This document shows positions 28,482 to 45,670 of a stretch of 64,000 bases of DNA, in pieces. The DNA comes from Thermus sp. 2.9 (GTDB lineage: Bacteria; Deinococcota; Deinococci; Deinococcales; Thermaceae): NCBI RefSeq assembly GCF_000794385.1, contig NZ_JTJB01000003.1, positions 124,001 to 188,000 on the forward strand, read 5' to 3'. Below the pieces are notes generated by a model that was given only the letters and a program-made list of their open reading frames with translations, had not been told where the DNA came from and did not search any database. The position numbers and the translations under genes are program-made. Position 1 is the stretch's first letter. Every line of letters starts with the position of its first letter.

Positions 28482-30345
28482 GGCGGGCCAGGGGAAGCCG
28501 CCTGCAGGCGGAAAGCACCGCCCCCAAGGTGGTGTAGCCCTTTTCCTTCAAGAGGGGGACCATGCGGATGAAGACCTCCGCGGTCATGAGGGCGTCCCCC
28601 AGGGCGGTGTGCCGCCCCAAAACGGGAACGCCGAAGCGCTCCGCCAGGGCCTCGAGGCGGTGGTCCTTGAGGTCGGGGAAGAGGAGGTGGGCGAGGAGGA
28701 GGGTGTCCACCAGGGGGGGCTCCCCCACCCCCACCCGCCGCAGGAAGGCCAGGTCAAAGGCCCCGTTGTGGGCGAGGAGGACTGTGTCTTCCAGGAAGGC
28801 CTTGAAGGCGGGGAGGACCTCCTCCAGCCTGGGCTTGCCCTTCAGCATCTCCCAGGTGAGGCCGTGCACCTCCGTGGCCGCCTTGGCGATGGGGCGGCCG
28901 GGGTCCACCAGGGCCTCAAAGGTTTCCTGGTGGAGGACCCGCCGTCCCAGGACGTGCACCGCCCCCAAGGCGACGATGGCGTCCTTTTCCGGGTCCAGCC
29001 CCGTGGTTTCCAGGTCAAAGGCGGTGTAGAGGAGGCCCTCCAGGGGGGCGTCCTCGAGGGCCTCCGGCACCAGGAGGAGAGCTGGGTCCACCACCTCGGC
29101 CCGGGGCGGGGGGCCTTGGGGCGCGGGGAGGCTCGGGGCTTCCCGGGCCGGCAGGAGGAGGTGAAGCCGGCCATCCTCCCGCCAAAGGCTTCCCTGGGCG
29201 GCCTCCACCGCCTTCTGCAGCAGGGGGTGGGGCTTCGGGGCTGGGTGGGGGAAGAGGAGGGTGAGGCGGAAGAGGTTCCCCTGCCGCCCCCCTTCCCAAA
29301 AGACCTCTTCCTCCCCCGCCAGGGTGGCGGCGAGGCCCCGGGCGAGGGCGTAGGTGTCCGCCTGCACCAAAAGCCCCTCGGCCCCTTCCTTCAGGGAAAA
29401 CCCCGGGGAAAGTCCCGCTTCCCGTTCCAGGGCCTCGGCCAAGAGGGCAAGGAGGTCCTCCGCCCGCACCTCCTCCGCCCGCACCGGCGCCTTCAAGCCT
29501 TCCACCAGGCGGGAAAGGGCCTCCGCCGTGGCCCGGGCCTGGGCCAGGAGGGGATGGGGGGCTTCCTGCGCCGCCGCCTCCACCAGGGCCCTAAGCCCCG
29601 CCAGCTTGTCCTTGAGGCGGTGCAGGGTGGCCTCCTCCAGGGCCCCCTCCTCCCGAGCCTCCTCCAAGAGGAGCAAAAAGCCAGCTTCCAGGGGCACCGC
29701 CTGCAGGCGCAAGGGGCCCTTGGGGCCCTGGGTGAGGAAGCGCTCCTCGGGCAGGGCCAGGGCGTGGGCCAGCAGGCTCCGGTCCAGAAGGCCAAAAAGG
29801 CTTTTCCCCGCCCCAAGCCCCTCCCCCAAGAGCCGGCGGGCCGGGGGGTTGTAGAGGAGGACCTGGCCCTTGGGGTTGGCCAGGACCACCCCTTGGGGCA
29901 GGTGGGCGATCAGGGTGGCCAAGACCTCCCGCTCCCGGGTTAAAAGGGCCTTGGCCTCCGCCACGCGGGCCTCCACCTCCTTTTCCAGGGCTTCCTTCTC
30001 CTCCGCCAGGCGGTTGATGAGGTCCGCCAGGGCCCTGAGTTCAAAGGGCCCCCGGAGGCGCAGGCGGTGGCCGGGGTTGGCCAGGAGGATCTCCGCCTCC
30101 TGGCCCAGGGCCCGGGTGGCGGCCAGGTACCCCAGGAAAAGGGGGTGGAGGAGGGCGGCCAGCACCAAGGCGAAGAGGAAGGCCAAAAAGAGGAGGAGGA
30201 AGGCCTTTTCCCGGGCCAGCCGCAGGAGTTCCCGCGCCAGGGCCTCCTCCCCCTGGAGGAGGAGGAAAAGCCCCGCCCCCGCCGTTCCCCCCACCAGGAG
30301 GAGGCCCAAAAGGAGAGCGCCCAGGAAGCGTAGGATCTCCCTCAT
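28471..30345 (-). CDS. Membrane sensor-like protein fused to a DEDDh 3'-5' exonuclease domain
   Basis: 624 residues. Two N-terminal membrane segments (about 4-30 and 46-75), a HAMP-like linker and coiled coil (to about 140), a PAS-like domain (LIAHLPQGVVLANPKGQVLL), a degenerate histidine-kinase-like region (HRLKDKLAGLRALVEAAA), then a DnaQ-type exonuclease from about 440: FDLETTGLDPEKDAIVALGA (D-x-E), LLAHNGAFDLAFLRR, and GRHTALGDALMT, so the DEDDh acids look complete. Such proteins occur beside acetate symporter/kinase genes in proteobacteria. Role in signalling is unknown. The ATG overlaps the stop of the receiver gene by 4 bases. Confidence 0.85.
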   Translation of the reverse strand: MREILRFLGALLLGLLLVGGTAGAGLFLLLQGEEALARELLRLAREKAFLLLFLAFLFALVLAALLHPLFLGYLAATRALGQEAEILLANPGHRLRLRGPFELRALADLINRLAEEKEALEKEVEARVAEAKALLTREREVLATLIAHLPQGVVLANPKGQVLLYNPPARRLLGEGLGAGKSLFGLLDRSLLAHALALPEERFLTQGPKGPLRLQAVPLEAGFLLLLEEAREEGALEEATLHRLKDKLAGLRALVEAAAQEAPHPLLAQARATAEALSRLVEGLKAPVRAEEVRAEDLLALLAEALEREAGLSPGFSLKEGAEGLLVQADTYALARGLAATLAGEEEVFWEGGRQGNLFRLTLLFPHPAPKPHPLLQKAVEAAQGSLWREDGRLHLLLPAREAPSLPAPQGPPPRAEVVDPALLLVPEALEDAPLEGLLYTAFDLETTGLDPEKDAIVALGAVHVLGRRVLHQETFEALVDPGRPIAKAATEVHGLTWEMLKGKPRLEEVLPAFKAFLEDTVLLAHNGAFDLAFLRRVGVGEPPLVDTLLLAHLLFPDLKDHRLEALAERFGVPVLGRHTALGDALMTAEVFIRMVPLLKEKGYTTLGAVLSACRRLPLARLRY

Positions 30346-30701
30346 GTCCCCTCCAAAAGCGCCCGCACCCGGGCGAGGAGGTCCTCTACGGCGAAGGGTT
30401 TACCCAGGAAGCCCTCCGCCCCCAAGGCCTCCGCCTTGGCCCGGTCCGCCTCCCGGCCCCGGGCGGTGAGGACCAGGACCTTTGGGGGATGGGAGTGGGC
30501 CTTGAGGCGCTCCAGGACGGCAAAGCCGTCCACACCGGGGAGCATGAGGTCCAGCACCACCAGGTCAAAGGGGCTCGCCTCCGCCGCCCCCAAGGCTTCC
30601 TCTCCCGTCTTGGCCAAGGCCACCTCGTACCCCGCCTTGCGCAGGAGGAACTCCAGGGGCACCAGGATGCTCTCCTCGTCATCCACCAGAAGGATCCGCA
30701 T
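30342..30701 (-). CDS. Receiver-only response regulator
   Basis: 119 residues consisting of one CheY-like receiver: acidic pocket VDDEES, phosphoacceptor Asp in VVLDLMLPGVDGF, Thr in VLTARG and Lys in LGKPFAVEDL. No DNA-binding output domain is attached, so it must act through protein contacts. It overlaps the histidine kinase gene by 23 bases and the exonuclease gene by 4, so kinase, receiver and exonuclease form one translational unit. ATG 30701 begins the domain exactly. Confidence 0.92.
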   Translation of the reverse strand: MRILLVDDEESILVPLEFLLRKAGYEVALAKTGEEALGAAEASPFDLVVLDLMLPGVDGFAVLERLKAHSHPPKVLVLTARGREADRAKAEALGAEGFLGKPFAVEDLLARVRALLEGT

Positions 30702-33171
30702 CTTCCACCTCCAAGGGTACGGTGAAGGCGAAGGCCCCGCCTTCCCCCGCTTCCAGGTAGACCCGCCCGCCCAAGCCCTCGGCCAGGCGCCTCGCCAGGT
30801 AAAGCCCGAGCCCCATGCCCCCCGAGAGGCTTTGGAAGGGCTCAAAGATCCGCTCCCGCGCCTCCTCGGGCACCCCGGGGCCGTCGTCCAAGACGCGGAA
30901 AAGGGCCTCTTGCCCCTTCGGCATAAGCTCCAGGCGCACCCGGCTTCGGGCGTGGCGTATGGCGTTGGTGAGGAGGTTAAGGAGCACCTGGAGTACCCGG
31001 TCCCGGTCGGTGTGGGTGAAAAGGGGGGTCAAGGCCCTTTCCAGTCTGATCCCCCGCTCCCGGGCCAGGGGCTCGGTGAGGCTTAGGGCCTCCTCCGCCA
31101 GGGCCTTTAGGTCTGTGGGCTCCTTCCTTGGGGCGGGGCCCGTCTGGAGGCGGGCGTAGCGCAGGACCTCCTCCACCAGGCGGGAAAGCCTTGCCGCCTC
31201 CTTCGCCAAGAGGGCGGTGAAGCGTCCCCGCTCCTCCTCGGAGAGGTCAGGGTGGGCGGCCAGGATCTCCGCCAGGGCCCGCACCGCGGTGAGGGGGGTC
31301 TTGAGCTCGTGGGACACCGCCCAAAGGAGCTCGTCCTTGGCCCGGTCCAGGGCCTTTAGCCGCTCGTAGGCCTCGGCCAGCTCCGCCTGGGCCCTTTCCA
31401 GGGCCTGGGCGTAGGCCCGCACCTCTTTTGACTCCCGGGCCGCCTCCTCCAGGAGGGGCCGATGCGCCCCTGGGGCTTCCTCCGTGACGGAAAGGAGGAG
31501 GAGCCGGGCGGTGGCGGGCCCCAGGGCGGAGGAGAGGAAGGCCTCGGCCCTTTGGGCGGCTTCGGTGCCGGGAAGGCCTTCGGCCTCCTTGAGGAAGGCC
31601 TCCGCCGTCTCCTTCCCCAAGACCCTTTCCAAAAGGGATGCGAGCGCCGCCACCTCCCCGGTGCGCCCCCCTAGGGGAGCGTCCTTGCGGGTGAAGAGGG
31701 AAACGCCCAGGGTGAGGGCCAGGTTCACCCCCAGGCTCACCAGGAAGCCGTGGGTGATGGGGTCTAGGCCCTTTAGGCCCAAAAGCCCCTCGGGATGGAG
31801 GAGGGGGTGGGGGCCTTCCAGGAAGAGGGGGGAAAGGAAGCCGGAGCGGGCCAGGGTGGGGAGGAAGAGGGTGTAGGCCCAAAGGCCCACCCCGGCCAGG
31901 AACCCCGCCAGAGCCCCCGTCCCCGTGGCCCCCTTCCAGTAGAGGCCGAGAAGGGCCGCCGGGGCCAGCTGCGCCACCGCCACGAAGGAGATGAGCCCCA
32001 TGCCCACCAAGGCGTGGGCTTCCCCCGCCAGGCGGAAGTAGAGGTAGGCCAAAAGCATCACCAGGAGGATGGCAAGCCTTCGCCACAGGAGGAGGCTTCC
32101 CAGGGCCCGGTAGCGCAGGAGGAGGGGGGAGAGGAGGTGGTTGGAAAGCAGGATGGAGAGGGCAAGCCCCTCCACCACCACCATGGCCGTGGCGGCGGAC
32201 ACTGCCCCCAGGAAAGCTAAAAAGGCCACGGGGGGGCTTCCCGCCAGGAGGGGGAGGGCCAGGACGAAGAGGTCGGGGTTTTCCCCGGGCAAAAGAAGCC
32301 TCCCCCAAAGGGCCAGGGGGAGGATGGGCAGGTTGATGAGGAGGAGGTAGAGGGGGAAGGCCCAGGCGGCCTGGGGCAGGTGGCGGGGGTCTTGGCCCTC
32401 CACCACCGCCACGTGGAACTGCCGGGGCAGGAGGAGGAAGGCGAGGCCGGAAAGCGCCACCAGGCTCACCCAAGCCAGGTGCCCGGAAAGCCCCTCAGGG
32501 GGGAGGAGGAGGGGGTGGAGGTGGGGCTCGGCCTGGGCGCGGGGAAAGGGGTTCCCGAGGCTTAAGAGGACCAAGGCCCCCACCAGGAGGAGGGCGAGGA
32601 GCTTCACCACGGATTCAAAGGCCACCGCCAGGACCAGGCCCGGGTGGCGCTCCGAAGGGTCCAGGCGGCGGGTGCCGAAGAGGATGGCGAAGAGGGCGAG
32701 GAGAAGGGCGGTGAGGAGGGCTACGTCCGCCAAGGGGGCCTTTTCCCAGCTAAGGAAGAGGAAGGCTTGGGCGATGGCCTTAAGCTGCAGGGCCAGGTAG
32801 GGCAGAAGCCCCACCACCAAAAACCCCGCCGCCAGGGGGGCCAAGGGACCTGGGCCATAGCGCAGGTGGAGGAAGTCCGCCCAGGAGGTGAGGCGGTGGG
32901 TCCGGGCCAGGGCGAGGAGCCTTCCGTGAAGCCAAGGCCAGAGGAGGAGGACCAAGGTTGCCCCCAGGTAGACGGGGAGGAAGGTGGCCCCTTCCGTGGC
33001 CGCCCGCCCGGCGCTGCCCAGGAAGGTCCAGGCGGTGGCGTAGACCGCTAGGGAGAGGGCGTAGATCCAGGGGCTTTGCGTGAAGCTCGGGCGGCTTTCC
33101 CCCCACAGGGCCACCAGGAAGAGGAGGCCCAGGTAGAGGAGAAGGCCGAGGAGAAGCACCCCAGGGCTCAT
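30679..33171 (-). CDS. Sodium:solute symporter-domain histidine kinase (CrbS/CbrA type)
   Basis: 830 residues. The N-terminal 480 or so residues hold about 13 membrane segments of the SSSF/PutP symporter fold (WIYALSLAVYATAWTFLGSAG is its TM2-like segment). Then a coiled coil and a kinase core: H-box DELLWAVSHELKTPLTAVRA, N-box LLNLLTNAIRHA, and G-boxes DDGPGVPE and GMGLGLYLAR. In Vibrio and Pseudomonas such hybrids (CrbS, CbrA) control acetate or carbon use; gene context here also points to acetate. ATG 33171 starts at the first membrane segment. Confidence 0.9.
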   Translation of the reverse strand: MSPGVLLLGLLLYLGLLFLVALWGESRPSFTQSPWIYALSLAVYATAWTFLGSAGRAATEGATFLPVYLGATLVLLLWPWLHGRLLALARTHRLTSWADFLHLRYGPGPLAPLAAGFLVVGLLPYLALQLKAIAQAFLFLSWEKAPLADVALLTALLLALFAILFGTRRLDPSERHPGLVLAVAFESVVKLLALLLVGALVLLSLGNPFPRAQAEPHLHPLLLPPEGLSGHLAWVSLVALSGLAFLLLPRQFHVAVVEGQDPRHLPQAAWAFPLYLLLINLPILPLALWGRLLLPGENPDLFVLALPLLAGSPPVAFLAFLGAVSAATAMVVVEGLALSILLSNHLLSPLLLRYRALGSLLLWRRLAILLVMLLAYLYFRLAGEAHALVGMGLISFVAVAQLAPAALLGLYWKGATGTGALAGFLAGVGLWAYTLFLPTLARSGFLSPLFLEGPHPLLHPEGLLGLKGLDPITHGFLVSLGVNLALTLGVSLFTRKDAPLGGRTGEVAALASLLERVLGKETAEAFLKEAEGLPGTEAAQRAEAFLSSALGPATARLLLLSVTEEAPGAHRPLLEEAARESKEVRAYAQALERAQAELAEAYERLKALDRAKDELLWAVSHELKTPLTAVRALAEILAAHPDLSEEERGRFTALLAKEAARLSRLVEEVLRYARLQTGPAPRKEPTDLKALAEEALSLTEPLARERGIRLERALTPLFTHTDRDRVLQVLLNLLTNAIRHARSRVRLELMPKGQEALFRVLDDGPGVPEEARERIFEPFQSLSGGMGLGLYLARRLAEGLGGRVYLEAGEGGAFAFTVPLEVEDADPSGG

Positions 33172-33344
33172 GGCCGGCGGAAGAGGAGAAAGGCCAAGAG
33201 GACCACCAAGGCCCAGGCCCCGAAGAGGTAGAGGTAAAGGGGGGGAAGCCCCCAAGGCCCCTCCACCCCCCGGAAGAGGAGGCTTAGGGGCAGGGTGAAG
33301 AGGAAGAGGGCCAGGAGGAAGAGGGCGAAGGCTTTCTCCTTCAT
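33168..33344 (-). CDS. Small two-helix membrane protein (58 aa)
   Basis: Begins MKEKAFALFLLALFLFTLPL and ends AFLLFRRP, with two hydrophobic segments separated by a short GVEGPWGLPPLY loop. ATG 33342-33344 overlaps the stop of the CBS-domain gene (ATGA) and its own TGA overlaps the kinase ATG, so translation is continuous through all three. The position, just before a symporter-type kinase, recalls the small subunits (DUF485/DUF4212) that accompany such symporters, but the sequence is too short to classify. Confidence 0.75.
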   Translation of the reverse strand: MKEKAFALFLLALFLFTLPLSLLFRGVEGPWGLPPLYLYLFGAWALVVLLAFLLFRRP

Positions 33345-35089
33345 CGCAGGTTGAAGCGGCTTGCCGTGCTCTCCTGCACCTCCTGGATGGCCCTAAACCC
33401 CTCCAGGGCCCGCCGCCTTTCCCCGGGGGAGAGGGCCGCCCAGAGCACCTTGTTGCCGATCTCCTTCCCCTCGCGGAAGGCCTGGAGCTGGTGGGCCAGG
33501 CGCAGGCCGAAGAAGAAGCGGAAGGCCTCCTCCAGCCTTTCCGCCCCTTCGCGGCTTAGCGTCCCCCCTTCCGCCGCCGCCCTAAGCCGCTCCACCGTGC
33601 CCTTGGCGGCGCTTCCCGCCAGGAGGGCGTAAAGCCTTGCCAGGGCCACGATGGGGGCGAGGGCCGAGCGCTTGAGGTCCACGAAGCCCTCCTCCGTGCG
33701 CACCCGGCCCAGAAAGCCCAAAGGAGGGTGGAACGCCAGGCTGGCCCGGGCCAGGTGGTAGAGGAAAACCCCCCGCTTGGCCCCTTCCAAGACGGCCTCT
33801 TCCAAGGGCTTTAGGGAAAGCTCCCCGGCGGCGCCCCGGAAGTCAAAGAAGATCTGGGACTCCAGGAGGGCCTGGGGTTCGGGCGTTTCCATGAAGCGGC
33901 GGAAGGTGGCGATCCAGTCCGTGAGGGGCATGCGCCAGCGGGTGGCCATATACCCCCCCTTGCACTCGGGGATCCCCGCCTCCAAAAGCCCCCCCACCAC
34001 CCGCTCCGCCAGGGCCTGGAAGTAGGCCTCGTGCCCCCCTTCCCCCAGGACCAGGGCGTTGTCCTGGTCGGTGAGGAGGGCCTGCTCCCGGCGGCCTTCC
34101 GAGCCGAAGACCATGAAGCTATAGGGGGTGGGGGGTGGCCCTAAGGCGGCTTCCCCCTCCTTCACCAGGCGGCGGATCAGGGCGTCGTTCAGGGAGGCCA
34201 CCACCCGGCCGATCTCCAGGGCCTCGAGGCCCTTCTGAAAAAGCCCCTCCACCAGGTGGGCCACCTCGGCGCTGTAGCGGGTGAGCTCCAGGCGCTCAAT
34301 CCGCCGCAGGAGGAGAAGGGGGCTTTGCGCCTGGTGCAGGAGGAGGTCGGTGTGGGTCAAAAGGCCCACGATCCTCGTCCCTTCCGTGAGGGGCAGGTGG
34401 TGGATGCCCCGCTCCACCATGGCCGCCACCGCCTCGTAGAGGGGGGTGTCCGCGGGCAGGGCGAAGAGGGGGGCGGTCATCACCGCCGCCACCGGGGTAG
34501 AGGGGGGAAGGCCCTCCGCCAAGACCCGGTTCCTCAGGTCCCGGTCGGTGAGGATGCCGGGGGGGTCGGAGGCCACCAGGAGGCTGCTGATGCCCTCCTC
34601 CCGCATCCTCCTTGCCGCCTCCTGCACCGGGGCTTCCGGTGCGATGAAGACCGGTGCCCGCCGCACGAGCCGCCCCACGGGAGCAAAGAGGGAAAGTTCG
34701 GGCAAGGCCCTAAGCCGCACCCGCTCCGCCAAGCCCTGCCCGAAGAAGCGGGCGGCCTCGGGGTGGGCGAGGAGCCGGCGAAAAGCGGCTTCGGGAAAAC
34801 GCAGGAGGCGCACCGGGGTCTTGGCCACCACGCTAAACGCCGGGGGCTCCCCGGTAAGGAGGGAAGGGAATCCGAAAAACTCCCCTGCGCCCAACACCCC
34901 CACCTCCCTTTCCCCGTCCAGGAGGGCCACCTCCCCCTCCAGCACCAGGTAGAGCGCCTGGACAGGTACTCCTCCTTGCTCCAGGAAACGGGTTCCGGGA
35001 GGGTGGGCCTCCTCTACCCCTTGGGCTAGGAAAGCCTCTTGTACGGGTTTGGGCAGGGCCTGTAACGGGGGTATCGTCCTCGGACGCAT
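33341..35089 (-). CDS. cNMP-binding / CBS-pair / DUF294 nucleotidyltransferase-like protein
   Basis: 582 residues. A cyclic-nucleotide-binding fold (about 15-125, GEVALLDGEREVGVLGAGEFFGFPSLL), a pair of CBS domains (about 145-265, MREEGISSLLVAS and MVERGIHHLPLTEG), then a GlnD-like nucleotidyltransferase domain with MVFGSEGRREQALLTDQDNA and a helical C terminus. This architecture is typical of the DUF294 proteins encoded with acetate symporters and SSSF kinases. It probably senses adenylates or cNMPs; its target is unknown. A structured region with a U run ends right at its ATG. Confidence 0.88.
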   Translation of the reverse strand: MRPRTIPPLQALPKPVQEAFLAQGVEEAHPPGTRFLEQGGVPVQALYLVLEGEVALLDGEREVGVLGAGEFFGFPSLLTGEPPAFSVVAKTPVRLLRFPEAAFRRLLAHPEAARFFGQGLAERVRLRALPELSLFAPVGRLVRRAPVFIAPEAPVQEAARRMREEGISSLLVASDPPGILTDRDLRNRVLAEGLPPSTPVAAVMTAPLFALPADTPLYEAVAAMVERGIHHLPLTEGTRIVGLLTHTDLLLHQAQSPLLLLRRIERLELTRYSAEVAHLVEGLFQKGLEALEIGRVVASLNDALIRRLVKEGEAALGPPPTPYSFMVFGSEGRREQALLTDQDNALVLGEGGHEAYFQALAERVVGGLLEAGIPECKGGYMATRWRMPLTDWIATFRRFMETPEPQALLESQIFFDFRGAAGELSLKPLEEAVLEGAKRGVFLYHLARASLAFHPPLGFLGRVRTEEGFVDLKRSALAPIVALARLYALLAGSAAKGTVERLRAAAEGGTLSREGAERLEEAFRFFFGLRLAHQLQAFREGKEIGNKVLWAALSPGERRRALEGFRAIQEVQESTASRFNLR

Positions 35090-35165
35090 AAAACAAAGGC
35101 CTATGGCCAGCCTGGCTTCAACCTCCTCCAGGACCCCTTGGGGTCCTGGAGGAGACTTGAGCCAG
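35090..35165 (-). terminator. Long hairpin plus short hairpin/U run between actP and the CBS gene
   Basis: A perfect 15-bp stem (35123-35137 with 35140-35154) is extended by CTGGCT/AGCCAG and CAA/TTG to a 54-nt hairpin (35112-35165). On the minus strand it is followed by GGCC-ATA-GGCC (35098-35108) and TTTGTTTT (35090-35097), which abuts the ATG of the CBS gene. It looks like a terminator or attenuator limiting readthrough from actP into the signalling genes. Confidence 0.6.
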
Positions 35166-35194
35166 CTTTGGGTGCCGGAGCTAAGGCGGGATAC

Positions 35195-36730
35195 CTAGTC
35201 CCCTCCCAGGTGCACCCGACGCTCAACCTCCCGGTAGCGTTCCTCCGCCTCCTTTTCTTGGGACAGAAGGGAAAAGAGGTAGCCGGCCAAGAACCCTAGC
35301 GGGATGGAAACAATGCCCGGGTTTTTGAGGGGGAAAATGGGGCTTGCATGCTTAAGGATGTCCACCTGCACCGTGGGGGAGAGGTAGATGAGGATGACCG
35401 CGGAGAGAGTGCCGACGAGGATGGCGCCTACTGCTCCGGCGGTTGTGAATTTGCGCCAAAAAACCGAGTAGACGATGGCGGGAAGGTTTCCACTGGCAGC
35501 GATGGCGAAGGCTAGCCCCACCGTGAAGGCCACGTTTTGCCCCTTGAAGGCGATGCCCAGGAGGATGGCCACGATGCCCAAGAGCAAGGTGGCGATCCGA
35601 GCGACCGCCAGCTGTTCCTTTTCGGGGGCCTTTCCTTGCCGGACCACATTCACCCAAAGGTCGTGGGAAAGGGCGGCGGCTCCAGACAGGGTAAGGCCTG
35701 CCACCACCGCTAGAATGGTGGCGAAGGCCACGGCGCTGATGAACCCTAAAAAGGCTGTCCCCCCGAGCGCCTCGGCGAGCAGGGGCGCCGCCATGTTGCC
35801 CCCCTTGTCGATGGCCCGGATGGGGTCTCGGCCCACCAGGGTCATGGCGCCGAACCCCAAGACGAAGGTGAGAAGGTAGAAGAAGCCGATGAAAAGGGTA
35901 GCCCAGCTCACGGACGTTCTGGCGGCCCTGGCGTCGGGAACCGTGTAAAACCGCATGAGGATATGGGGTAGGCCTGCGGTGCCCAGCATTAGGGCCAAGC
36001 CCAGGGAAAGGGTGTCTATGGGGTTGGCAACGAGCCCTCCAGGAGCCAAGACTTGTTCCCCGTACTTAGCGGCCGCATCTTGGAACAACGAAAGAGGGTT
36101 CAGGCCATAGCGGACCAGCACCAGGAGGGCAAGGAGGAAGGCCCCGCTTAAGAGGAGTACGGCCTTGACGATCTGAACCCAGGTGGTGGCCACCATGCCT
36201 CCGAAGAGAACATAGGCCAGCATCACCACCCCTACGAGCACCACCGCCCACTCGTAGGATAGCCCGAAGAGGAGCTTGATCAGGTTGCCGGCCCCCACCA
36301 TTTGGGCGATGAGGTAGAGGGTGACCACAACCAAGGTGCTCACCGCTGCGGCGCTGCGCACCGGAGCTTGCCGGAGGCGGTAGGCCACCACGTCGGCGAA
36401 GGTGTATTTGCCGAGGTTTCGCAGGGGCTCGGCCACGAGGAACATGACCACGGGCCAGCCCACGAGGAAGCCGATGGAGTAGAGGAGGCCGTCAAAACCG
36501 GAAAGGGCTACGAGACCGGCGATGCCGAGGAAGCTCGCCGCTGACATGTAGTCACCGGCCAGGGCGAGGCCGTTCTGAAAACCAGAGATAGACCTGCCGG
36601 CGGCATAGAACTCCTCCGTAGACCTCGTTCGCCGCGCGGCCCAGTAGGTGATGCCCAGAGTTAGTGCGATGAAGACGAAGAAGAAAAGGATTGCCGTGGG
36701 GTTGGGTTGTCCCAACGCGCTTCCGCTCAT
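35195..36730 (-). CDS. actP: Sodium/solute symporter, acetate permease ActP type
   Basis: 511 residues, about 13 membrane segments, SSSF family. The signature [24 protein letters not shown] near the N terminus is that of cation/acetate symporters. It probably imports acetate or a similar small carboxylate for the adjacent acetyl-CoA synthetases. Its ATG overlaps the DUF485 stop by 4 bases. Base composition is visibly less GC-rich, with more A/T at third positions, than neighbouring genes, suggesting a different origin. Confidence 0.9.
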
Positions 36731-37002
36731 CCTCGCACCTCCTTCAGCTGGCGAATGGCCTCGTCGTAGTAACGGTTAGCCCACCGGACGTAGATCCCGT
36801 TGAGCACCCAGGCGGTCAGGATCACCAAGACGCCAAGGAAAATACCCCAGCTCAAGCCAGGTACGATTTGCGTGCCCATAGCCCCCTTTGCGTAAGCGAC
36901 AAGGAGGAAAAACCCCAAATAGATGGCGAGCATGGCCCCTGTGAGGGCGAGGGCGATCCGCCATCTTGCCTGAACGAGCTGCTCCAACTGGTCTTTGGAC
37001 AT
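36727..37002 (-). CDS. DUF485 membrane protein (YjcH type)
   Basis: 91 residues with two membrane segments ([21 protein letters not shown] and [20 protein letters not shown]) and the family ending [22 protein letters not shown]485 proteins are regularly encoded directly before ActP and are thought to assist it. Good AGGAGG site before the ATG. Transcribed from the TTGACA promoter at 37090-37119. Confidence 0.92.
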
Positions 37003-37089: not shown

Positions 37090-37119
37090 AGTATGATTTC
37101 TCGGTGAGGAGCATGTCAA
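37090..37119 (-). promoter_or_regulatory. Promoter of the DUF485-actP operon
   Basis: -35 TTGACA (37114-37119), 18-base spacer, -10 CATACT (37090-37095) on the minus strand. The -35 is preceded by GTTTTC, giving the extended GGTTTTCTTGACA that resembles the CCCTTTCTTGAC shared by the two acs promoters. Confidence 0.7.
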
Positions 37120-37161
37120 GAAAACCAGCTTTTTCGGTCATGCGCAAAAGGTGGGTTTTCT
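37119..37161. promoter_or_regulatory. Dyad operator candidate at the actP promoter
   Basis: AGAAAACC (37119-37126) and its complement GGTTTTCT (37154-37161) are separated by 27 bases. The acs intergenic region has AGAAAGGG and CCCTTTCT with the same 27-base gap, so the AGAAA to TTTCT span is 43 bases in both places. The left arm touches the actP -35. Probably bound by the same regulator. Confidence 0.6.
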
Positions 37162-37248: not shown

Positions 37249-39132
37249 TTACTCCTCGAGGGTGGAAAGGTCCCCAGGGTCTTTCCCCAGCTCCCTCGCC
37301 TTCAGAAGCCGCCGCAGGATCTTGCCCGAGCGGGTCTTGGGAAGCTTCTCCAGGAAGACCACCTCGCTGGGCGTGGCGATGGGGCCAAGCTCCCGGCGCA
37401 CGTGCTGGATGATCCCTTCCTTGAGCGCCTCCGAGGGGCTCTGCCCCGAGCGCAGGACCACGAAGGCCTTGATGGCTTCCCCCTTCAGGGGGTCGGGCAC
37501 CCCGATCACTGCCGCCTCCGCCACCGCCGGGTGGGAGACCAAGGCGCTTTCCACGTCCGCGGTGCCGATGCGGTGGCCGGCCACGTTGAGGACGTCATCC
37601 GCCCGGCCCAGGACGCTGAAGTAGCCTTCCTCGTCCTGGCTTGCCACGTCCCCGGCGGCGTAGACCCCCCCAGGAACCTCCCGCCAGTACTGGAGGTAGC
37701 GCTCGTGGTTGCCCCAGACGGTGCGCATCATGTGGGGGAAGGGCCGCTTGAGCACCAAAAGCCCCCCCTGCCCTGGGGGCACGGGCTTCCCCTCCTCGTC
37801 CACCACGGCGGCCTCCACCCCGGGCAGGGCCACCCCGGCAAAGCCCGGCTTGGCCGGGAGGGTGAGGGGGGTGCCCAGGGTGGGCCCCCCCAGCTCCGTC
37901 TGCCACCAGTTGTCCGCCACGAAGCCCCTTTTGCCCCCGTCCACCAGGTGCGCATAGGCCCAGCGCAGGGCCTCCGGGTTTAGGGGCTCTCCCGCCACGG
38001 CCAGGAGGCGCAAGGAGGAGAGGTCGTACCGCTTGGGCCACTCGGGGCCGTACTTCATGAAAAGCCGCACCGCCGTGGGGGCGGTGAACATCACGTTCAC
38101 CCGGTACCGCTCCACCACCTGCCAGAAGGCCCCGGGGTCGGGGTAGTCGGGGGCCCCTTCCCGGAGCACGGAGGTGATGCCCTCCAAGAGAGGGGCGTAG
38201 ACGATGTAGGAGTGGCCCACGATCCAGCCGATGTCGCTGCTGGCCCAGAAGACGTCCTCGTCCTTCACGTCAAAGAAGGTGCGCAGGTGGTAGGTGGTGC
38301 CCACCATGTAGCCCCCGTGGACGTGGACCACCCCCTTGGGCTTGCCCGTGGAGCCCGAGGTGTAGAGGATGAAGAGGGGGTGTTCCGCCTCCACCATCTC
38401 CGCCCGGGCCTCCGGGGGGGTGTTCCAAAGGAGTTCCTGGAAGTCATGGTGGCCTTCGGGAAGCTCCGCCCGGTAGGCCCTCTGGAACCAGATGACCTTT
38501 AGGGGGAGGTCCCGGATGGCCTCCTCCACGATGGAGCGGAGGTCCACCCCCTTCCCCCTTCGGTGGCTCACGTCCCCGGCGATGAGGAGCTTGGCCCCTG
38601 CATCCAGGATGCGCTCCCTCAGCGCCGCCACCCCAAGCCCGGCGTAGACCACGCTGTGGATGGCCCCCAGGTAGGCGGTGGCCAGCATGGCCATCACGCC
38701 TTCCAGGGTGAGGGGCATGTAGATCACCACCCGGTCCCCCTTGCCCACCCCAAGCCGCTTAAGGGCGGTGGCCAGGCGGCGCACCCGGTCCAAAAGCTCC
38801 CCATAGGTGAGCTTTTGCTCCTGCCCGTCCTCGCTTAGGTAGAGGAGGGCCACCTTGTTCCGGAGGCCCCGCTCCACGTTGCGCTCCAGGGCGTTGTAGA
38901 CGGCGTTGGTGGTGCCTTCCAGGAACCAGCGGTGCTCGGGGAGGTCCCACTCCAGGACCTTCTGGAAGGGCGTTTCCCAGTAGAACCGCTTGGCCCACTC
39001 CCCCCAGAAGCCCTCGGGGTCCTCGAGGCTCCGCCGGTACTCCGCGGCGAAGCCCTTGAGGTTTGCCGCCCGGCGCAAGGCTTCAGGGGCCCAAAGCCGC
39101 TCTTCCGCTTTAAGAAGCTTTTCCACCGCCAT
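37249..39132 (-). CDS. Acetyl-CoA synthetase-like enzyme (second acs)
   Basis: 627 residues of the AMP-forming acyl-CoA synthetase family. Adenylation motif [43 protein letters not shown] and the C-terminal catalytic lysine region KTRSGKILRRLLKA are present, and the N-terminal ACAS domain (EDPEGFWGEWAKRFYWETPF) is complete. It lacks the canonical TETGG, having TELGG, as does the IclR-fused paralogue, so the acyl preference may differ from acetate. The start overlaps the upstream fused gene by 23 bases, so both are made together. Confidence 0.88.
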   Translation of the reverse strand: MAVEKLLKAEERLWAPEALRRAANLKGFAAEYRRSLEDPEGFWGEWAKRFYWETPFQKVLEWDLPEHRWFLEGTTNAVYNALERNVERGLRNKVALLYLSEDGQEQKLTYGELLDRVRRLATALKRLGVGKGDRVVIYMPLTLEGVMAMLATAYLGAIHSVVYAGLGVAALRERILDAGAKLLIAGDVSHRRGKGVDLRSIVEEAIRDLPLKVIWFQRAYRAELPEGHHDFQELLWNTPPEARAEMVEAEHPLFILYTSGSTGKPKGVVHVHGGYMVGTTYHLRTFFDVKDEDVFWASSDIGWIVGHSYIVYAPLLEGITSVLREGAPDYPDPGAFWQVVERYRVNVMFTAPTAVRLFMKYGPEWPKRYDLSSLRLLAVAGEPLNPEALRWAYAHLVDGGKRGFVADNWWQTELGGPTLGTPLTLPAKPGFAGVALPGVEAAVVDEEGKPVPPGQGGLLVLKRPFPHMMRTVWGNHERYLQYWREVPGGVYAAGDVASQDEEGYFSVLGRADDVLNVAGHRIGTADVESALVSHPAVAEAAVIGVPDPLKGEAIKAFVVLRSGQSPSEALKEGIIQHVRRELGPIATPSEVVFLEKLPKTRSGKILRRLLKARELGKDPGDLSTLEE

Positions 39133-41641
39133 CGCTTTCCTCCAGTCCCGAGGTGTCCCCCGGGTCTAAGCCCAAGAGTTCCGCCTTAAGAAGCCGCCGC
39201 AGGATCTTGCCGCTCCGGGTGCGGGGCAGGCTTTCCGCAAAAAGGACCCGGGGCGGGGTCACCGGGCCCAGGTGGCGCAGGAGGTGGGCCTTGAGCTTTT
39301 CCGCCAGGAGGGGCTTGAGCTCCTCGGGGACCGCCTGCTTGGGCACCACGAAGACCACGATCTCCTCCCCCTCTTCCCCCGGCACCCCCACCGCCGCCGC
39401 CTCCGCCACCTGGGGGTGGGTGAGGGCGGCGGCCTCCACCTCGGCGGTGCCGAGCCTGGCCTCCCCCACCTTGATCACCTCCTCCGAGCGGCCCAGGATG
39501 CGGAAATACCCCTCCTCGTCCATCACCGCCAGGTCCCCGGTCCAGTAGAGCCCGCCCCGCCACGGGTTTTCCCCCCCCAGGAGGTCCACCATGTGGGCGG
39601 GGCCCGCCCGGAGGAGGACCAGGTGCCCCTTGGCCCCCGGGGGGAGGACCTGGCCTCCCTCATCCACCACCCGGGCCTCCACCCCGGGGAGGGGCACCCC
39701 CACGTAGCCGGGCTTGGCGGGGAGGGCGAGGGGGGTGGCGAGGGCCGGGGCCCCGAGCTCCGTCTGCCACCAGTTGTCCAGGGGCCACGCCAGGTTTTCC
39801 CGGGTCCACCGCCACACCTCCGGGGCCAAGGCCTCCCCCACGCTCCCCACCAGCCGTAGGCCCGTGGGCCTTGCCTCCCCGTGGCGCCTGAGGGTGCGGA
39901 GGAGGGTGGGGGAGGTGAGGAGGACATCCACCTTGAGCCGGGCCAGGCGCTCGTAGAAGGCGGCGGGGCTTGGGTGGTCGGGGCGGTCCTCCACCAGCAG
40001 GCTGGTGCCCCCCAGGAAAAGGGGGGCGTAGAGGCCGAAGGAGTGGCCCACCACCCAGAAGAGGTCGGCGGTGGTGTGGAAGACCTCCCCCGGCTTTAGG
40101 TCAAAGAGGTAGCGGAGGGCCCAGGCCACCCCCACCATGTACCCCCCGTGGCCGTGGACCACGCCCTTGGGCCTCCCCGTGGACCCGGAGGTGTGGAGGA
40201 GGAACAAGGGGTGGTGGGCGGGCACGGGCACAGGGTCCACCGGTCTCCCTTCGGAGGCCCTTTCCAGGAACTCCGTGGTTCCCCGCACGTGCCAGAGCAC
40301 GGGGAGGTCCAGCCCCGCTACCGCCGCCTCCACCACGGGGCGCAAGGGGATGAGCTGGCCCCTGCGGTAGTAGCCGTCGGCGGCGAGAAGGAGCCGGGCC
40401 TGGCTTTGGAGAAGTCTGTCCCTTAGCGCTTCAGGCCCTAGGCCCACGGGCAAGGCCATGTGCACCGCGCCTATGCGGGCCAGGGCCAAGAGGGTTAGGG
40501 TGGCCTCGGCTCCCGTGGGCGTATAGAGGGCCACCCGGTCCCCAGGCCGCACGCCCAGGCCCCAAAGGAGGCCCGCCAGGCGGGCAGAAAGCTCCTGGAG
40601 CTCCCGGTAGGTCCACTTTTCCAGGCGCCCTTCCCCGTCCAGGGTGAGGAGGGCCACCTGTTGGGCCTTTTCCGGGAGGTGGCGGTCCAAGGCGTTGAGG
40701 GCGGCGTTGGTGAGCCCCCCTTGGAACCAGCGGCGGCTCTCGGGGTCGTAGGCCTTTTCCCAAGGCCTTTCCCAGAAGAACTCCCGGGCGAAGGCGCCAA
40801 AGAAGGCTTCGGGGTCCTCGAGGGCTTCTCGGTAGGCGGCGGCGAGGTCCTGTAGGTTGGCCTTCTCCTTCAACTCGTCGGGAGGCTCCATCACCTCCAC
40901 CCGGAAGCCCGCCTCCGGGGGCAGGGCCAGGCTTGGGGGCTCGGGGGGCTTGAGGTAGGGGGAGACCTGGGCCACCTCGGAAAGGGCCCGGGCCAGGCGG
41001 CTAAAGGCGAAGGGGAAACGCCGAGCCGGCACCACCACGCCCAAGGCGCCAAGAAGCTCCCCCCCCGGGCCGAAAAGGGGAGCGGCCAGGGCGGAAAGCC
41101 CCAGGGCGTACTCCTCCATCTCCGCCGCCAGGCCCGACTCCCGCACCCGCTTGAGTTCCTCCTCGAGGGCCAAGGGGTCGGTGAGGGTGTAGGGGGTGCG
41201 GGGGCGCAAGGGGGGTAAGGGCAGGGCGCCAAAGGCCAGGAGCACCTTGCCTAAGGCCAGGGCGTGAGCCTCCTCGGGAAGGGTTTCCCCCAGGGGGTGG
41301 GGCTGGCCCTGCCGCCCCCTCGTCTTCAGCCTCACCCCTTGGGGGGTGAGGAGGGCCAGGTAGCAGCGCTCCCGGGTGCGGAGGTAAAGCTCTTCCAGGG
41401 CCTCCTCCAAGGGGGTGGTCTCCAGGGGAACCGGCTTGGCGCTCCCCAGGCGGTAACCCCTTTCCCCTTTGACGGCAAAGCCTTCCTCCACCAGGCTATT
41501 CAGGAGGGCGTAGGCGGTGGAGAGGCTCTTGCCCAGGAGGCGGGCCACCTCCTTCACCTCTACCCCTTCGGGGTGCTCCGCCAGGTAGGCCAGGATGCGC
41601 AAGGCGGCCTGCACGGTGGAAAGGCTTCGCTTCTTGGCCAT
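39110..41641 (-). CDS. IclR-type regulator fused to an acetyl-CoA synthetase
   Basis: 843 residues in a single frame. Residues 1-65 are an IclR winged helix (LSTVQAALRILAYLAEHPEG, EVARLLGKSLSTAYALLNSL). Residues 75-230 resemble the IclR effector domain (AHALALGKVLLAFGAL, GLAAEMEEYALGLSALAAP). From about 252 an acetyl-CoA synthetase follows: EDPEAFFGAFAREFFWERPW, TSGSTGRPKG (484-493), DNWWQTELGAPA, YWTGDLAVMDEEGY and the catalytic Lys in SGKILRR (K812). So both a DNA-binding and an enzymatic half look intact. It is divergent from the canonical acs and may link acetate activation to transcription. The start at 41641 begins the HTH with MAKKRS. Confidence 0.88.
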   Translation of the reverse strand: MAKKRSLSTVQAALRILAYLAEHPEGVEVKEVARLLGKSLSTAYALLNSLVEEGFAVKGERGYRLGSAKPVPLETTPLEEALEELYLRTRERCYLALLTPQGVRLKTRGRQGQPHPLGETLPEEAHALALGKVLLAFGALPLPPLRPRTPYTLTDPLALEEELKRVRESGLAAEMEEYALGLSALAAPLFGPGGELLGALGVVVPARRFPFAFSRLARALSEVAQVSPYLKPPEPPSLALPPEAGFRVEVMEPPDELKEKANLQDLAAAYREALEDPEAFFGAFAREFFWERPWEKAYDPESRRWFQGGLTNAALNALDRHLPEKAQQVALLTLDGEGRLEKWTYRELQELSARLAGLLWGLGVRPGDRVALYTPTGAEATLTLLALARIGAVHMALPVGLGPEALRDRLLQSQARLLLAADGYYRRGQLIPLRPVVEAAVAGLDLPVLWHVRGTTEFLERASEGRPVDPVPVPAHHPLFLLHTSGSTGRPKGVVHGHGGYMVGVAWALRYLFDLKPGEVFHTTADLFWVVGHSFGLYAPLFLGGTSLLVEDRPDHPSPAAFYERLARLKVDVLLTSPTLLRTLRRHGEARPTGLRLVGSVGEALAPEVWRWTRENLAWPLDNWWQTELGAPALATPLALPAKPGYVGVPLPGVEARVVDEGGQVLPPGAKGHLVLLRAGPAHMVDLLGGENPWRGGLYWTGDLAVMDEEGYFRILGRSEEVIKVGEARLGTAEVEAAALTHPQVAEAAAVGVPGEEGEEIVVFVVPKQAVPEELKPLLAEKLKAHLLRHLGPVTPPRVLFAESLPRTRSGKILRRLLKAELLGLDPGDTSGLEESDGGGKAS

Positions 41642-41674: not shown

Positions 41675-41750
41675 TGTCAAGAAAGGGGGGCTTTGGCAAA
41701 TGGTGAAAAACACTCCCTTTCTTGACCCTACCCTTGGTTCTCCCTATCCT
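41675..41750. promoter_or_regulatory. Divergent acs promoters with a shared 12-base dyad
   Basis: GTCAAGAAAGGG (41676-41687) and its exact complement CCCTTTCTTGAC (41715-41726) flank a 27-base centre. The left arm contains, on the minus strand, the -35 TTGACA (41675-41680) of the IclR-acs gene. The right arm contains the -35 TTGACC (41722-41727) of acs, whose -10 is TATCCT (41745-41750) after 17 bases. Two promoters are thus built on mirror images of one motif, implying joint control. Confidence 0.7.
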
Positions 41751-41769: not shown

Positions 41770-43716
41770 ATGGACCGGATTGAAGGCGTCCTCAAGGAAG
41801 AGCGGGTGTTTTACCCGAGCGAGGCCTTCCGCCAGCAGGCCCACATCAAGAGCGAGGAGGAGTACGCGCGCCTCTACGAGGAAAGCCTAAGGGACCCCGA
41901 GGGCTTCTGGGGACGGGTGGCCTCGGAGCTCCACTGGTTTGAGCCTTGGCAGAAGGTCCTGGAGGGGGACCTCCCCCACCCCAAGTGGTTCGTGGGGGGC
42001 AAGACCAACCTCTCCTACAACGCCTTGGACCGCCACGTGAAGACCTGGCGCAAAAACAAGGCGGCCATCATCTGGGAAGGGGAGCCGGGGGAGGAGCGGG
42101 TCCTCACCTACCACGACCTTTGGCGGGAGGTGCAGAAGTTCGCCAACGTCCTAAAGCGGCTCGGGGTGAAGAAGGGCGATAGGGTCACCATCTACCTCCC
42201 CATGGTTCCCGAGGCGGCCATCGCCATGCTGGCCTGCACCCGCATTGGGGCGGTGCACTCCGTGGTCTTCGGGGGCTTTTCCTCAGGGGCCTTGGCCGAC
42301 CGCATCAAGGATGCCCAGGCCAAGGTCCTCATCACCGCCGACGGCGGCTACCGCCGGGGCGGCATCGTCCCCCTGAAGCAGAACGCCGACGAGGCCCTCA
42401 AGGAAACCCCCAGCGTGGAGCACGTGGTGGTGGTGCGCCGCACCGGGGAGGAGGTGCCCTGGACCCCGGGCCGGGACCACTGGTGGCACGAGCTCATGGA
42501 GGCGGCCCCCGACCGCCTGGACCCGGAACCCATGGAGGCGGAGGAGCCCCTTTTTATCCTTTACACCTCGGGCTCCACGGGTAAGCCCAAGGGGGTCCTG
42601 CACACCACGGGCGGCTACATGACCTACGTCTACTACACCACCAAGCTGGTCTTTGACCTCAAGGATGAGGACGTCTACTGGTGCACCGCCGACGTGGGCT
42701 GGATCACGGGCCACTCCTACGTGGTCTACGGGCCCCTTCTGAACGGGGCCACCACGGTGATGTACGAGGGGGCTCCCAACTGGCCGGAGCCCGACCGCTT
42801 CTGGCAGATTGTGGACAAGTACGGGGTGACCATCTTCTACACCGCCCCCACCGCCATCCGCGCCTTCATGAAGTGGGGGGAGGGGTGGCCCGCCAAGCAC
42901 CGCTTGGAAACCCTGAGGCTTCTGGGCACCGTGGGCGAGCCCATCAACCCCGAGGCGTGGCTTTGGTACTACCACGTGATCGGCAAAGGGCGCTGCCCCA
43001 TCGTGGACACCTGGTGGCAGACGGAAACGGGCGGCATCATGATCACCACCCTGCCCGGGGCCCATGCCATGAAGCCGGGGCACGCCGGCAAGCCCTTCTT
43101 CGGGGTGAAGCCGGAGATCCTGGACAGCGAGCACCGCCCCGTGGAGAACCCCGATGAGGGCGGCCACCTCTGCATCACCAGACCCTGGCCCAGCATGCTC
43201 CGCACCGTCTGGGGCGACCCGGAGCGCTTCCTGCAGCAGTACTTCAGCCAGCATCCCGGGGTCTACTTCACCGGGGATGGGGCCCGGCGGGACAGGGACG
43301 GCTACTACCTGATCCAGGGCCGGGTGGATGACGTCCTGAACGTGGCGGGCCACCGCCTGGGCACCATGGAGATTGAGTCCGCCCTGGTCTCCCACCCGGC
43401 GGTGGCGGAGGCGGCGGTGGTGGGCCGGCCCGACCCCATGAAGGGGGAGGCCATCGTGGCCTTCGTGACCCTGAAGGAGGGCTTCGCGCCTTCCGATGCC
43501 CTTAAGGAGGAGCTCAAGGCCCACGTGGCCAAGGTGATCGGCCCCATCGCCCGCCCCGACGAGGTGCGCTTCACCGACGCCTTGCCCAAGACCCGCTCCG
43601 GCAAGATCATGCGCCGCCTCCTGCGGCAGATCGCCGCCGGGGAGAAGGAGATCAAGGGGGACACCTCCACCCTCGAGGACCGCTCCGTGGTGGAGAAGCT
43701 CAAGGAAGGGGCCTAA
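41770..43716 (+). CDS. acs: Acetyl-CoA synthetase
   Basis: AMP-forming acetate activation to acetyl-CoA. 648 residues, the standard length. Motifs: [47 protein letters not shown] (Trp of the acetate pocket), [20 protein letters not shown], and the catalytic/acetylatable lysine in [17 protein letters not shown] 41770 has a GGAGGAGG site. This is the canonical copy of three; it is divergent from the IclR-fused paralogue. Confidence 0.96.
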
Positions 43717-43730
43717 GGCCCCGTCCTTTG

Positions 43731-43758
43731 GCCCGGCGGGCTAGCCCGCCGGGCTTTT
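43731..43758 (+). terminator. acs terminator
   Basis: GCCCGGCGGG-CTAG-CCCGCCGGGC (43731-43754), a perfect 10-bp stem followed by TTTT. The central CTAG holds the stop codon (43741-43743) of the convergent gene, so that gene's end is embedded in the terminator. Confidence 0.85.
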
Positions 43759-44121
43759 GTGCACGTGGACCACCTTCCACCCCTCGGGGAAGCGCACCGC
43801 CACCCGGCTTTCGTTCACCGCCCGGTGCCTCAGCCCCCCTTCCTCCTCCACGGTGAGGAGGAGGGTGTAGCTGAAGATGGCCACCTCCCCGTAGCGCTGG
43901 AGCCGGCGCTCCAAGAGGTCAATGCGGTAGGGCCTACCCCTGGTGGCCCAGTTCTTCTCCACCATGAAGCGGTGGAAGTCCAGGCCGTCCAGGCGGTGGG
44001 GGGTGACGAACCACTCATAGAGGGCAAGCTCCTCGTGGGTGGTGGCGGCGTAAGTCGTGTAGTCCCCCTCGTAGATGCTCCTCAGGTGGCGCTCCAAGAA
44101 GGCCCAAAGCTCCCCTTCCAC
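43741..44121 (-). CDS. SnoaL/DUF4440-like (NTF2 fold) protein
   Basis: 126 residues starting at GTG 44121 behind a GGAGG site, 4 bases after the mutase stop. VEGELWAFLERHLRSIYEGD, then HEELALYEWFVTPHRLDG, YGEVAIFSYTLLLTV and NESRVAVRFPEGWKVVHVHKS follow the one-helix/sheet pattern of calcium/calmodulin-kinase association and SnoaL-like domains. Function unknown. Co-transcribed with the methylmalonyl-CoA mutase gene. Confidence 0.78.
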   Translation of the reverse strand: MEGELWAFLERHLRSIYEGDYTTYAATTHEELALYEWFVTPHRLDGLDFHRFMVEKNWATRGRPYRIDLLERRLQRYGEVAIFSYTLLLTVEEEGGLRHRAVNESRVAVRFPEGWKVVHVHKSPAG

Positions 44122-44125
44122 GGCT

Positions 44126-45670
44126 TTACCTCCCCGGCTGGTACTCCCCCCACTCCTCCCGCAAAACCCCGCAGACCTCCCCCAAGGTGGCCCGGCGGCG
44201 GAAGGCTTCCAAAACATAGGGGAAGAGGTTTTCCTGGCCCCGCGCCGCCTGGCGCAGGCGCTCTAGGCCCACCCGGACGCTTTCCCCATCCCGGTTGGCC
44301 CTGAAGGCGGCAAGCTCCCGCTTCCTCCTCTCGTGGAGCTCGGGGTCAATGCGCTGCACGGGCACGGGCTCGTTTAGGGGGCTGTTGGGGTCAAAGAAGC
44401 GGTTCACCCCCACGAGGATCCGCTTGCCCTCCTCCACCTCCTTCTGGAACTGCCAGGCGGACTCCTCTATGGCCCGCTGGAAGTAGCCCGCCTCCACCGC
44501 GGCCACCGCCCCGCCCAGGGCGTCTATCTCGGCGATGAGCCTTTCCGCCTCCTTTTCCAACTGGTCCGTGAGGTGCTCCACGTAGAAGCTTCCCCCCAAG
44601 GGGTCAATGGCCTTGGTGACCCCGCTTTCATAGGCCAGGATCTGCTGCGTGCGCAGGGCGAGAAGGGCGCTTTTTTCCGTGGGCAGGCCCAAGGCCTCAT
44701 CGTAGGCGTTGGTGTGGAGGCTTTGCGTGCCCCCGAGCACGGCGGCCAGGGCTTGGTAGGCGGTGCGCACCACGTTGTTCAAGGGCTCTTGGGCGGTGAG
44801 GGTGGAGCCCCCCGTCTGGGTGTGGAAGCGGAGCATCCAGCTTTTGGGGTCCTTGGCCCCGAACTCCTCCCGCATGATCCGGGCCCAAAGCCGCCTGGCC
44901 GCGCGGAACTTGGCCGCCTCTTCAAAGATATCCCCGTGGGCGGCGAAGAAGAAGGAAAGCCTGGGGGCGAAGGCGTCCACGTCCAGGCCCCGCTCCAGGG
45001 CCGCCCGCACGTAGGCCTTGCCGTCGGCTAGGGTGAAGGCGATCTCCTGGGCGGCGGTGGCCCCCGCCTCGCGGATGTGGTAGCCGGAGATGCTGATGGT
45101 GTTCCACTTGGGCACGTGCCGGGCGCAGAACTCAAAGATGTCGGTCACGAGGCGCATGGAGGGGCCAGGGGGATAGATGTAGGTGCCCCGGGCGAAGTAC
45201 TCCTTCAGGATGTCGTTTTGCACCGTGCCCGAGACCTTGTCCCAAGAAACCCCTTGCTCCTCCGCCACCAGGAGGTAGAGGGCGAGGAGCATCATGGCGG
45301 GGGCGTTGATGGTCATGCTGGTGGAGACCTTGTCCAGGGGGATGCCGTCAAAGAGCTTGCGCATGTCCTCGAGGGTGGCGATGGACACCCCCACCCGCCC
45401 CACCTCCCCCACGCTCATGGGGTGGTCGGGGTCCAGGCCGAGCTGCGTGGGCAGGTCAAAGGCCACGCTGAGGCCGGTTTGGCCCTGGGAAAGGAGGTAT
45501 CGGTAGCGGGCGTTGGACTCCTCGGCGGTGGAGAAGCCGGCGTACTGGCGCATGGTCCAGAGCCGGTCCAGGTACATGCGGGGGTAGATGCCCCGGGTGA
45601 AGGGGTACTCCCCTGGCCGCCCTAGCCTTTCCCGGTAGCCCTCCGGCAGGGACTCAAAGAGGCCTTCCAT
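44126..45670 (-). CDS. Methylmalonyl-CoA mutase large (catalytic) domain protein
   Basis: 514 residues corresponding to the substrate-binding TIM barrel of methylmalonyl-CoA mutase. It begins near the family opening [27 protein letters not shown], with [38 protein letters not shown] and [14 protein letters not shown]. The C-terminal cobalamin domain is absent, so a separate B12-binding subunit encoded elsewhere must complete it. It interconverts succinyl-CoA and methylmalonyl-CoA or acts on a related acyl-CoA. Confidence 0.92.

Follow-up and report, generated by a model that had tools for sequence, protein, structure and literature searches.

The acetate gene cluster of Thermus sp. 2.9 raises the question of whether two widely spaced inverted repeats, located at two promoters of acetate genes, are copies of a single operator and, if so, which protein might bind them. 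We analysed a window of 64,000 nucleotides of this genome, and all positions given here refer to that whole stretch. On the permease side, the dyad consists of AGAAAACC (37119-37126) and GGTTTTCT (37154-37161), separated by a gap of 27 bases and spanning 43 bases, and the acs-side copy of AGAAA-N33-TTTCT is found at 41680-41722. The gap, the span and the equal spacing at the two promoters, as reported in the original prediction, were confirmed in the window sequence. The genes concerned are as follows.

35195 to 36730, minus strand: ActP-type sodium:acetate symporter (domain match)
36727 to 37002, minus strand: DUF485 small membrane protein, first gene of the permease operon (domain match)
37249 to 39132, minus strand: acs2, second acetyl-CoA synthetase, in the same operon as iclR-acs (domain matches)
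39110 to 41641, minus strand: iclR-acs, IclR regulator with an acetyl-CoA-synthetase-like domain (Pfam; start ATG at 41641)
41770 to 43716, plus strand: acs, acetate--CoA ligase (TIGR02188, above the cut-off)

The acs gene is divergent from iclR-acs, and acs2 followed by the DUF485-actP operon are located downstream of the latter. Downstream of actP, the cluster (28471-36730) codes for a DUF294/CBS/cNMP-binding protein (33341-35089), a CrbS-like kinase with an SSF-type N-terminus (30679-33255), a receiver-only response regulator (approximately 30342-30716) and, at its end, a protein with PAS and DnaQ-type exonuclease domains (28471-30345). Convergent to acs are genes for a CaMKII_AD/SnoaL-like small protein (43741-44217) and for the large subunit of methylmalonyl-CoA mutase (44126-45670).

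Comparison with relatives resolved a four-box pattern, GAAA-N7-TTT-N13-AAA-N7-TTTC, of approximately 41 bp, in which the centres of the outer pairs are 26 bp apart. In an alignment of 53 Thermus sites, 26 from acs and 27 from permease promoters, GAAA, TTT, AAA and TTTC occupy fixed offsets of 0, 11, 27 and 37, and the box triplets are invariant or near-invariant in both sets; a further alignment included 46 sequences in both orientations. The arm sequence described as shared in the original prediction is conserved as far as these four boxes are concerned, but the outer letters (CC/GG, ACC/GGT, GGG/CCC) show no conservation among the Thermus sites. The dyad is thus real, and the conserved operator to which it belongs is larger.

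37119 to 37161, minus strand: four-box operator of the acetate permease operon (rarity, box alignment, 27 of 27 Thermus genomes), with boxes on the plus strand GAAA 37120-37123, TTT 37131-37133, AAA 37147-37149 and TTTC 37157-37160
41680 to 41722, no strand assigned: four-box operator between iclR-acs and acs (window sequence, box alignment, relatives), with boxes GAAA 41681-41684, TTT 41692-41694, AAA 41708-41710 and TTTC 41718-41721

The 43-bp span and a TTGAC -35 element share one base, the last of the span and the first of the element. This is the case on both sides of the acs site but on only one side of the permease site. The fusion of a -35 element to an arm, also part of the original prediction, is found at the permease promoter (TTGACA, minus strand, 37119 to 37114) and on either side of the acs site. 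The promoter elements are listed below.

37114 to 37119, minus strand: -35 TTGACA of the DUF485-actP promoter, fused to the operator arm
37090 to 37095, minus strand: -10 CATACT of the DUF485-actP promoter, spacer 18
41722 to 41727, plus strand: -35 TTGACC of the acs promoter, at the operator end
41745 to 41750, plus strand: -10 TATCCT of the acs promoter, spacer 17
41675 to 41680, minus strand: -35 TTGACA of the iclR-acs promoter, at the operator end
about 41655 to 41650, minus strand: predicted weak -10 CAAGAT of the iclR-acs promoter

The sequence TTTCTTGAC is invariant across the 27 Thermus permease promoters, and most relatives harbour TAAGAT or a similar sequence at the position of the DUF485-actP -10 element. 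The permease operator is centred at 37140, approximately -57 relative to the predicted start of transcription, and the acs-side operator at 41701, approximately -56 for acs and -58 for iclR-acs as deduced from the predicted -10 elements. The predicted transcription start of iclR-acs is only a few bases away from the ATG, and since the -10 element is only approximately 10 bases 5' of ATG 41641, the message is probably leaderless. The GTG at 41713, which gives the longest ORF, is wrong as the start of iclR-acs; conservation fits the ATG at 41641.

Such sites are rare. The window contains two AGAAA-N33-TTTCT motifs when 0.04 are expected, and the 2.4-Mb genome has three against one for the reversed control. 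Simulated sequence (2.56 Mb) contained no exact match to the four-box pattern, and in the window only the two sites were found even with 2 mismatches allowed; the whole genome has just 10 copies of TTTCTTGAC. We also scanned 27 Thermus genomes with a sequence profile of the operator, which overlooks both G014 sites, where the spacing differs, and one G025 site. All matches at E < 0.006 correspond to the two sites, except for one within a predicted coding sequence (G022), and no recurring additional regulon member was detected in these 27 genomes. The many random matches that might have spoken against the original prediction thus did not appear. As the scan revealed essentially no other sites, the putative regulon has two, and it is predicted to be local, encompassing three ligase genes for acetate activation as well as acetate uptake. 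A four-box site with one mismatch, close to transporter genes (G000 contig 37; L146 1501-1541), was found in this genome only and was set aside as probably due to chance.

The operator was found in every one of the 27 Thermus genomes, at both promoters alike. Its association with the permease does not depend on the gene context, as in three of these genomes (G016, G017 and G026) the permease is relocated beside a yebC-like gene, with the operator still upstream. Nor does it depend on the type of permease: this Thermus, G006 and G014 have the ActP-type permease with DUF485 and most Thermus a VC_2705-type symporter, which are approximately 50% identical or less, and the operator is common to both. 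The transporter has thus been swapped between species under the same operator (35195-37002; loci L034-L059 and L137). Outside the genus, CAAG-N39-CTTG was found between acs and iclR-acs in all 20 further loci, from Meiothermus, other members of its family and a single genome from a different family, whose IclR parts are approximately 58-79% identical. Loss of the dyads from relatives that keep the genes, which would have refuted the prediction, was therefore not observed. At the Meiothermus-type permease promoters, the element is related and diverged, AATAA...CTTTTCGCA.ATATACAAAAAC...AATAACTTGACC.

Altogether, CAAG-N39-41-CTTG occurs in 46 of 46 acs/iclR-acs intergenic regions, with a spacing of exactly 39 in 43 of them, and in none of 20 acs upstream regions of genomes of the same class without the IclR-Acs fusion. 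The 46 positive regions are related and do not represent independent samples; one of the negatives, G054, belongs to a genus that otherwise carries the fusion and the element in the genomes examined. Because the acs operator adjoins the fusion gene, the co-occurrence partly reflects gene order, and to a large degree it follows gene order and phylogeny. The permease site provides more independent evidence, being distant from the fusion gene and unlinked to it in three genomes. A close permease was sought in the genomes devoid of the fusion, and none was found.

The IclR-Acs protein harbours the Pfam domains HTH_IclR, IclR_C, ACAS_N, AMP-binding and AMP-binding_C, with scores of 48.4 bits for PF09339 (cut-off 22) and 57.5 bits for PF01614 (cut-off 24) in its N-terminal part. 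With 843 residues, against approximately 250 for stand-alone members, it represents a variant of the IclR family rather than a standard member. Fusions of IclR with an Acs-like domain are found in Thermus, Meiothermus and relatives, and the region of the recognition helix, GKSLSTAYALL.SL, is nearly identical between the two genera. The Acs core motifs TSGSTG, WWQTE, TGD, LGR and PRTRSGK, the last of which corresponds to the acetylatable lysine motif PxTxSGK, are kept in the orthologues except in a few split frames. The iclR-acs frame appears split in L025, L028 and L029 (G007, G024 and G017, respectively), with an intact operator, and these cases may reflect faulty assembly or genuine decay of the Acs part. 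Against TIGR02188, the Acs domain of the fusion reaches 466.5 bits, below the cut-off of 725, and its substrate is therefore uncertain; this Acs-like domain may act as an enzyme, sense acetate or acetyl-AMP, or do both. It is approximately 50% identical to the adjoining acs2 (both in 37249-41641), which suggests that the fusion arose via tandem duplication of acs2. In an AlphaFold2 model of moderate confidence (mean pLDDT 68.6), the HTH region forms a winged helix (pLDDT approximately 75-84) and the effector domain is poorly modelled. All of the best 60 structural matches cover the Acs part only, with no solved structure of the fusion among them, and neither the fusion nor its operator is described in the open-access literature searched.

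Taken together, these data argue for the two dyads being copies of one operator that defines a compact acetate regulon, most likely bound by an IclR-Acs tetramer, a reading to which we assign a probability of about 0.82. The regulon of two acetate promoters put forward in the original prediction is supported by the rarity of the operator and its conservation at both. For IclR-Acs, which had been proposed as the possible regulator, the gene position, the IclR-type boxes and the co-occurrence point in the same direction. It is the best candidate because box type, conservation of the recognition helix, presence of the operator at its own promoter and co-occurrence concur.

It is improbable, though worth considering, that the operator is real and bound by another regulator, such as the output of the CrbS-like two-component system, a stand-alone IclR protein or a CRP-type protein. 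The CrbS-like kinase, with its SSF-like N-terminus, and the receiver protein are coded downstream in the same cluster, in Gammaproteobacteria acs and actP are under the control of the CrbS/CrbR system (PMC5715377), and 15 HTH_IclR-like matches, including IclR-Acs itself, were found in the genome. However, the nearby response regulator consists of a receiver domain only, the CrbR motif, e.g. TACTACCATCGTCGAAT (PMC5715377), is unlike the Thermus element when compared by eye, and the element tracks the IclR-Acs fusion and sits at the promoter of its gene. CrbR-type control, defined by the ACTU motif and a LuxR-type CrbR, was rejected on the grounds of the different motif and the receiver-only regulator.

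One might also argue that there is no operator, and that back-to-back promoters with A/T tracts, akin to UP elements, next to strong -35 boxes account for the pattern, since the outer arms of the acs site coincide with two divergent -35 elements. This is very unlikely. The permease site has a promoter at one end only, and the -35 letters are not kept at the other end, yet across 27 genomes the far AAA box there is invariant and both inner boxes keep constant offsets; the conservation of this far box indicates that the boxes do not simply result from two promoters. Moreover, in G036 and G037, which lack the fusion and are among the 20 negatives, the acs promoter CTTGAC...TATGCT seems to be kept and the boxes are absent, and the scarcity of TTTCTTGAC in the genome also speaks against this explanation. 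Chance likeness of two promoters has a negligible probability: the arms are short and A/T-rich, and AGAAA-N33-TTTCT occurs once more in the genome, but the conservation at both loci genus-wide, and at acs beyond the genus, refutes it, and the lack of exact four-box sites in the simulated sequence also argues against it.

In the regulon proposed for IclR-Acs, the shared divergent site would control iclR-acs with acs2 on one side and acs on the other, and the second site would control the acetate permease operon. A tetramer, as two dimers, would occupy the four boxes, abutting the -35 elements and centred at approximately -57, at three promoters. The signal would be acetate or its activated forms, acetyl-AMP or acetyl-CoA, and either the IclR effector domain or the Acs domain would sense it. 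Control by activation appears somewhat likelier than repression, as the operator is wholly upstream of the -35 element at all three promoters, a location compatible with RNA polymerase contact. Repression, which we consider slightly less than an even bet, would be compatible with the contact between the operator and near-consensus -35 elements. More tentatively, IclR-Acs might be a BirA-like trigger enzyme, whose Acs domain would make or bind acetyl-AMP or another acyl-AMP and whose state would switch the tetramer on the four-box operator. If so, a single polypeptide would measure acetate activation and set both acetate uptake and activation. This analysis thus proposes a defined, testable acetate regulon for Thermus and Meiothermus, whose candidate regulator combines a transcription factor and an acyl-adenylating enzyme in one protein; such a fusion could link enzyme state directly to gene control. 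In the symmetric site, one operator would serve two divergent promoters, with the -35 elements built into its ends.

Among known systems, TtgV is an IclR-family tetramer that binds approximately 40 bp. Its operator resembles the four-box operator in length and in the proposed two-dimer layout, whereas TtgV represses drug efflux and has no enzyme domain, which distinguishes it from IclR-Acs. More generally, IclR-family proteins are dimers or tetramers that usually control their own gene and one or two adjacent operons, and their operators consist of palindromic A/T-rich boxes, with alternating directions in multi-box sites (PMC8222616). The Thermus sites share A/T-rich alternating boxes with the operators of groups 1 and 2 and with three-box sites, including those of TphR and KdgR (Suvorova and Gelfand 2021, PMC8222616), as well as, according to our predictions, autoregulation and control of adjacent operons. 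They differ in having four boxes rather than two or three and in that their outer boxes touch the -35 elements. The published consensuses, GKTYCRYW3-4RYGRAMC or TGRAACAN1-2TGTTYCA, and the 18-22 bp between tandem centres (PMC8222616) do not match the N7-N13-N7 arrangement and the 26 bp between pair centres in Thermus. Nevertheless, the inner part of the permease site, TTTTGCGCAT..GCAAA, is strikingly similar to the TphR site TTTTTGCGCATAGCGCAAAAA. The ACTU regulon of CrbS/CrbR (PMC5715377) is comparable in its acs and actP content and in having one short inverted-repeat motif per promoter. It relies on another motif and another class of regulator, and the response regulator near the Thermus genes has no DNA-binding domain. 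BirA, for its part, is also an adenylate-forming enzyme. Together with PutA, it belongs to the trigger enzymes, which provide precedents for enzymes acting as regulators (PMC6978683). Both join an enzyme and a DNA-binding regulator of the pathway in one polypeptide, as predicted for the Thermus protein, which differs from them by its IclR-type HTH and effector domain.
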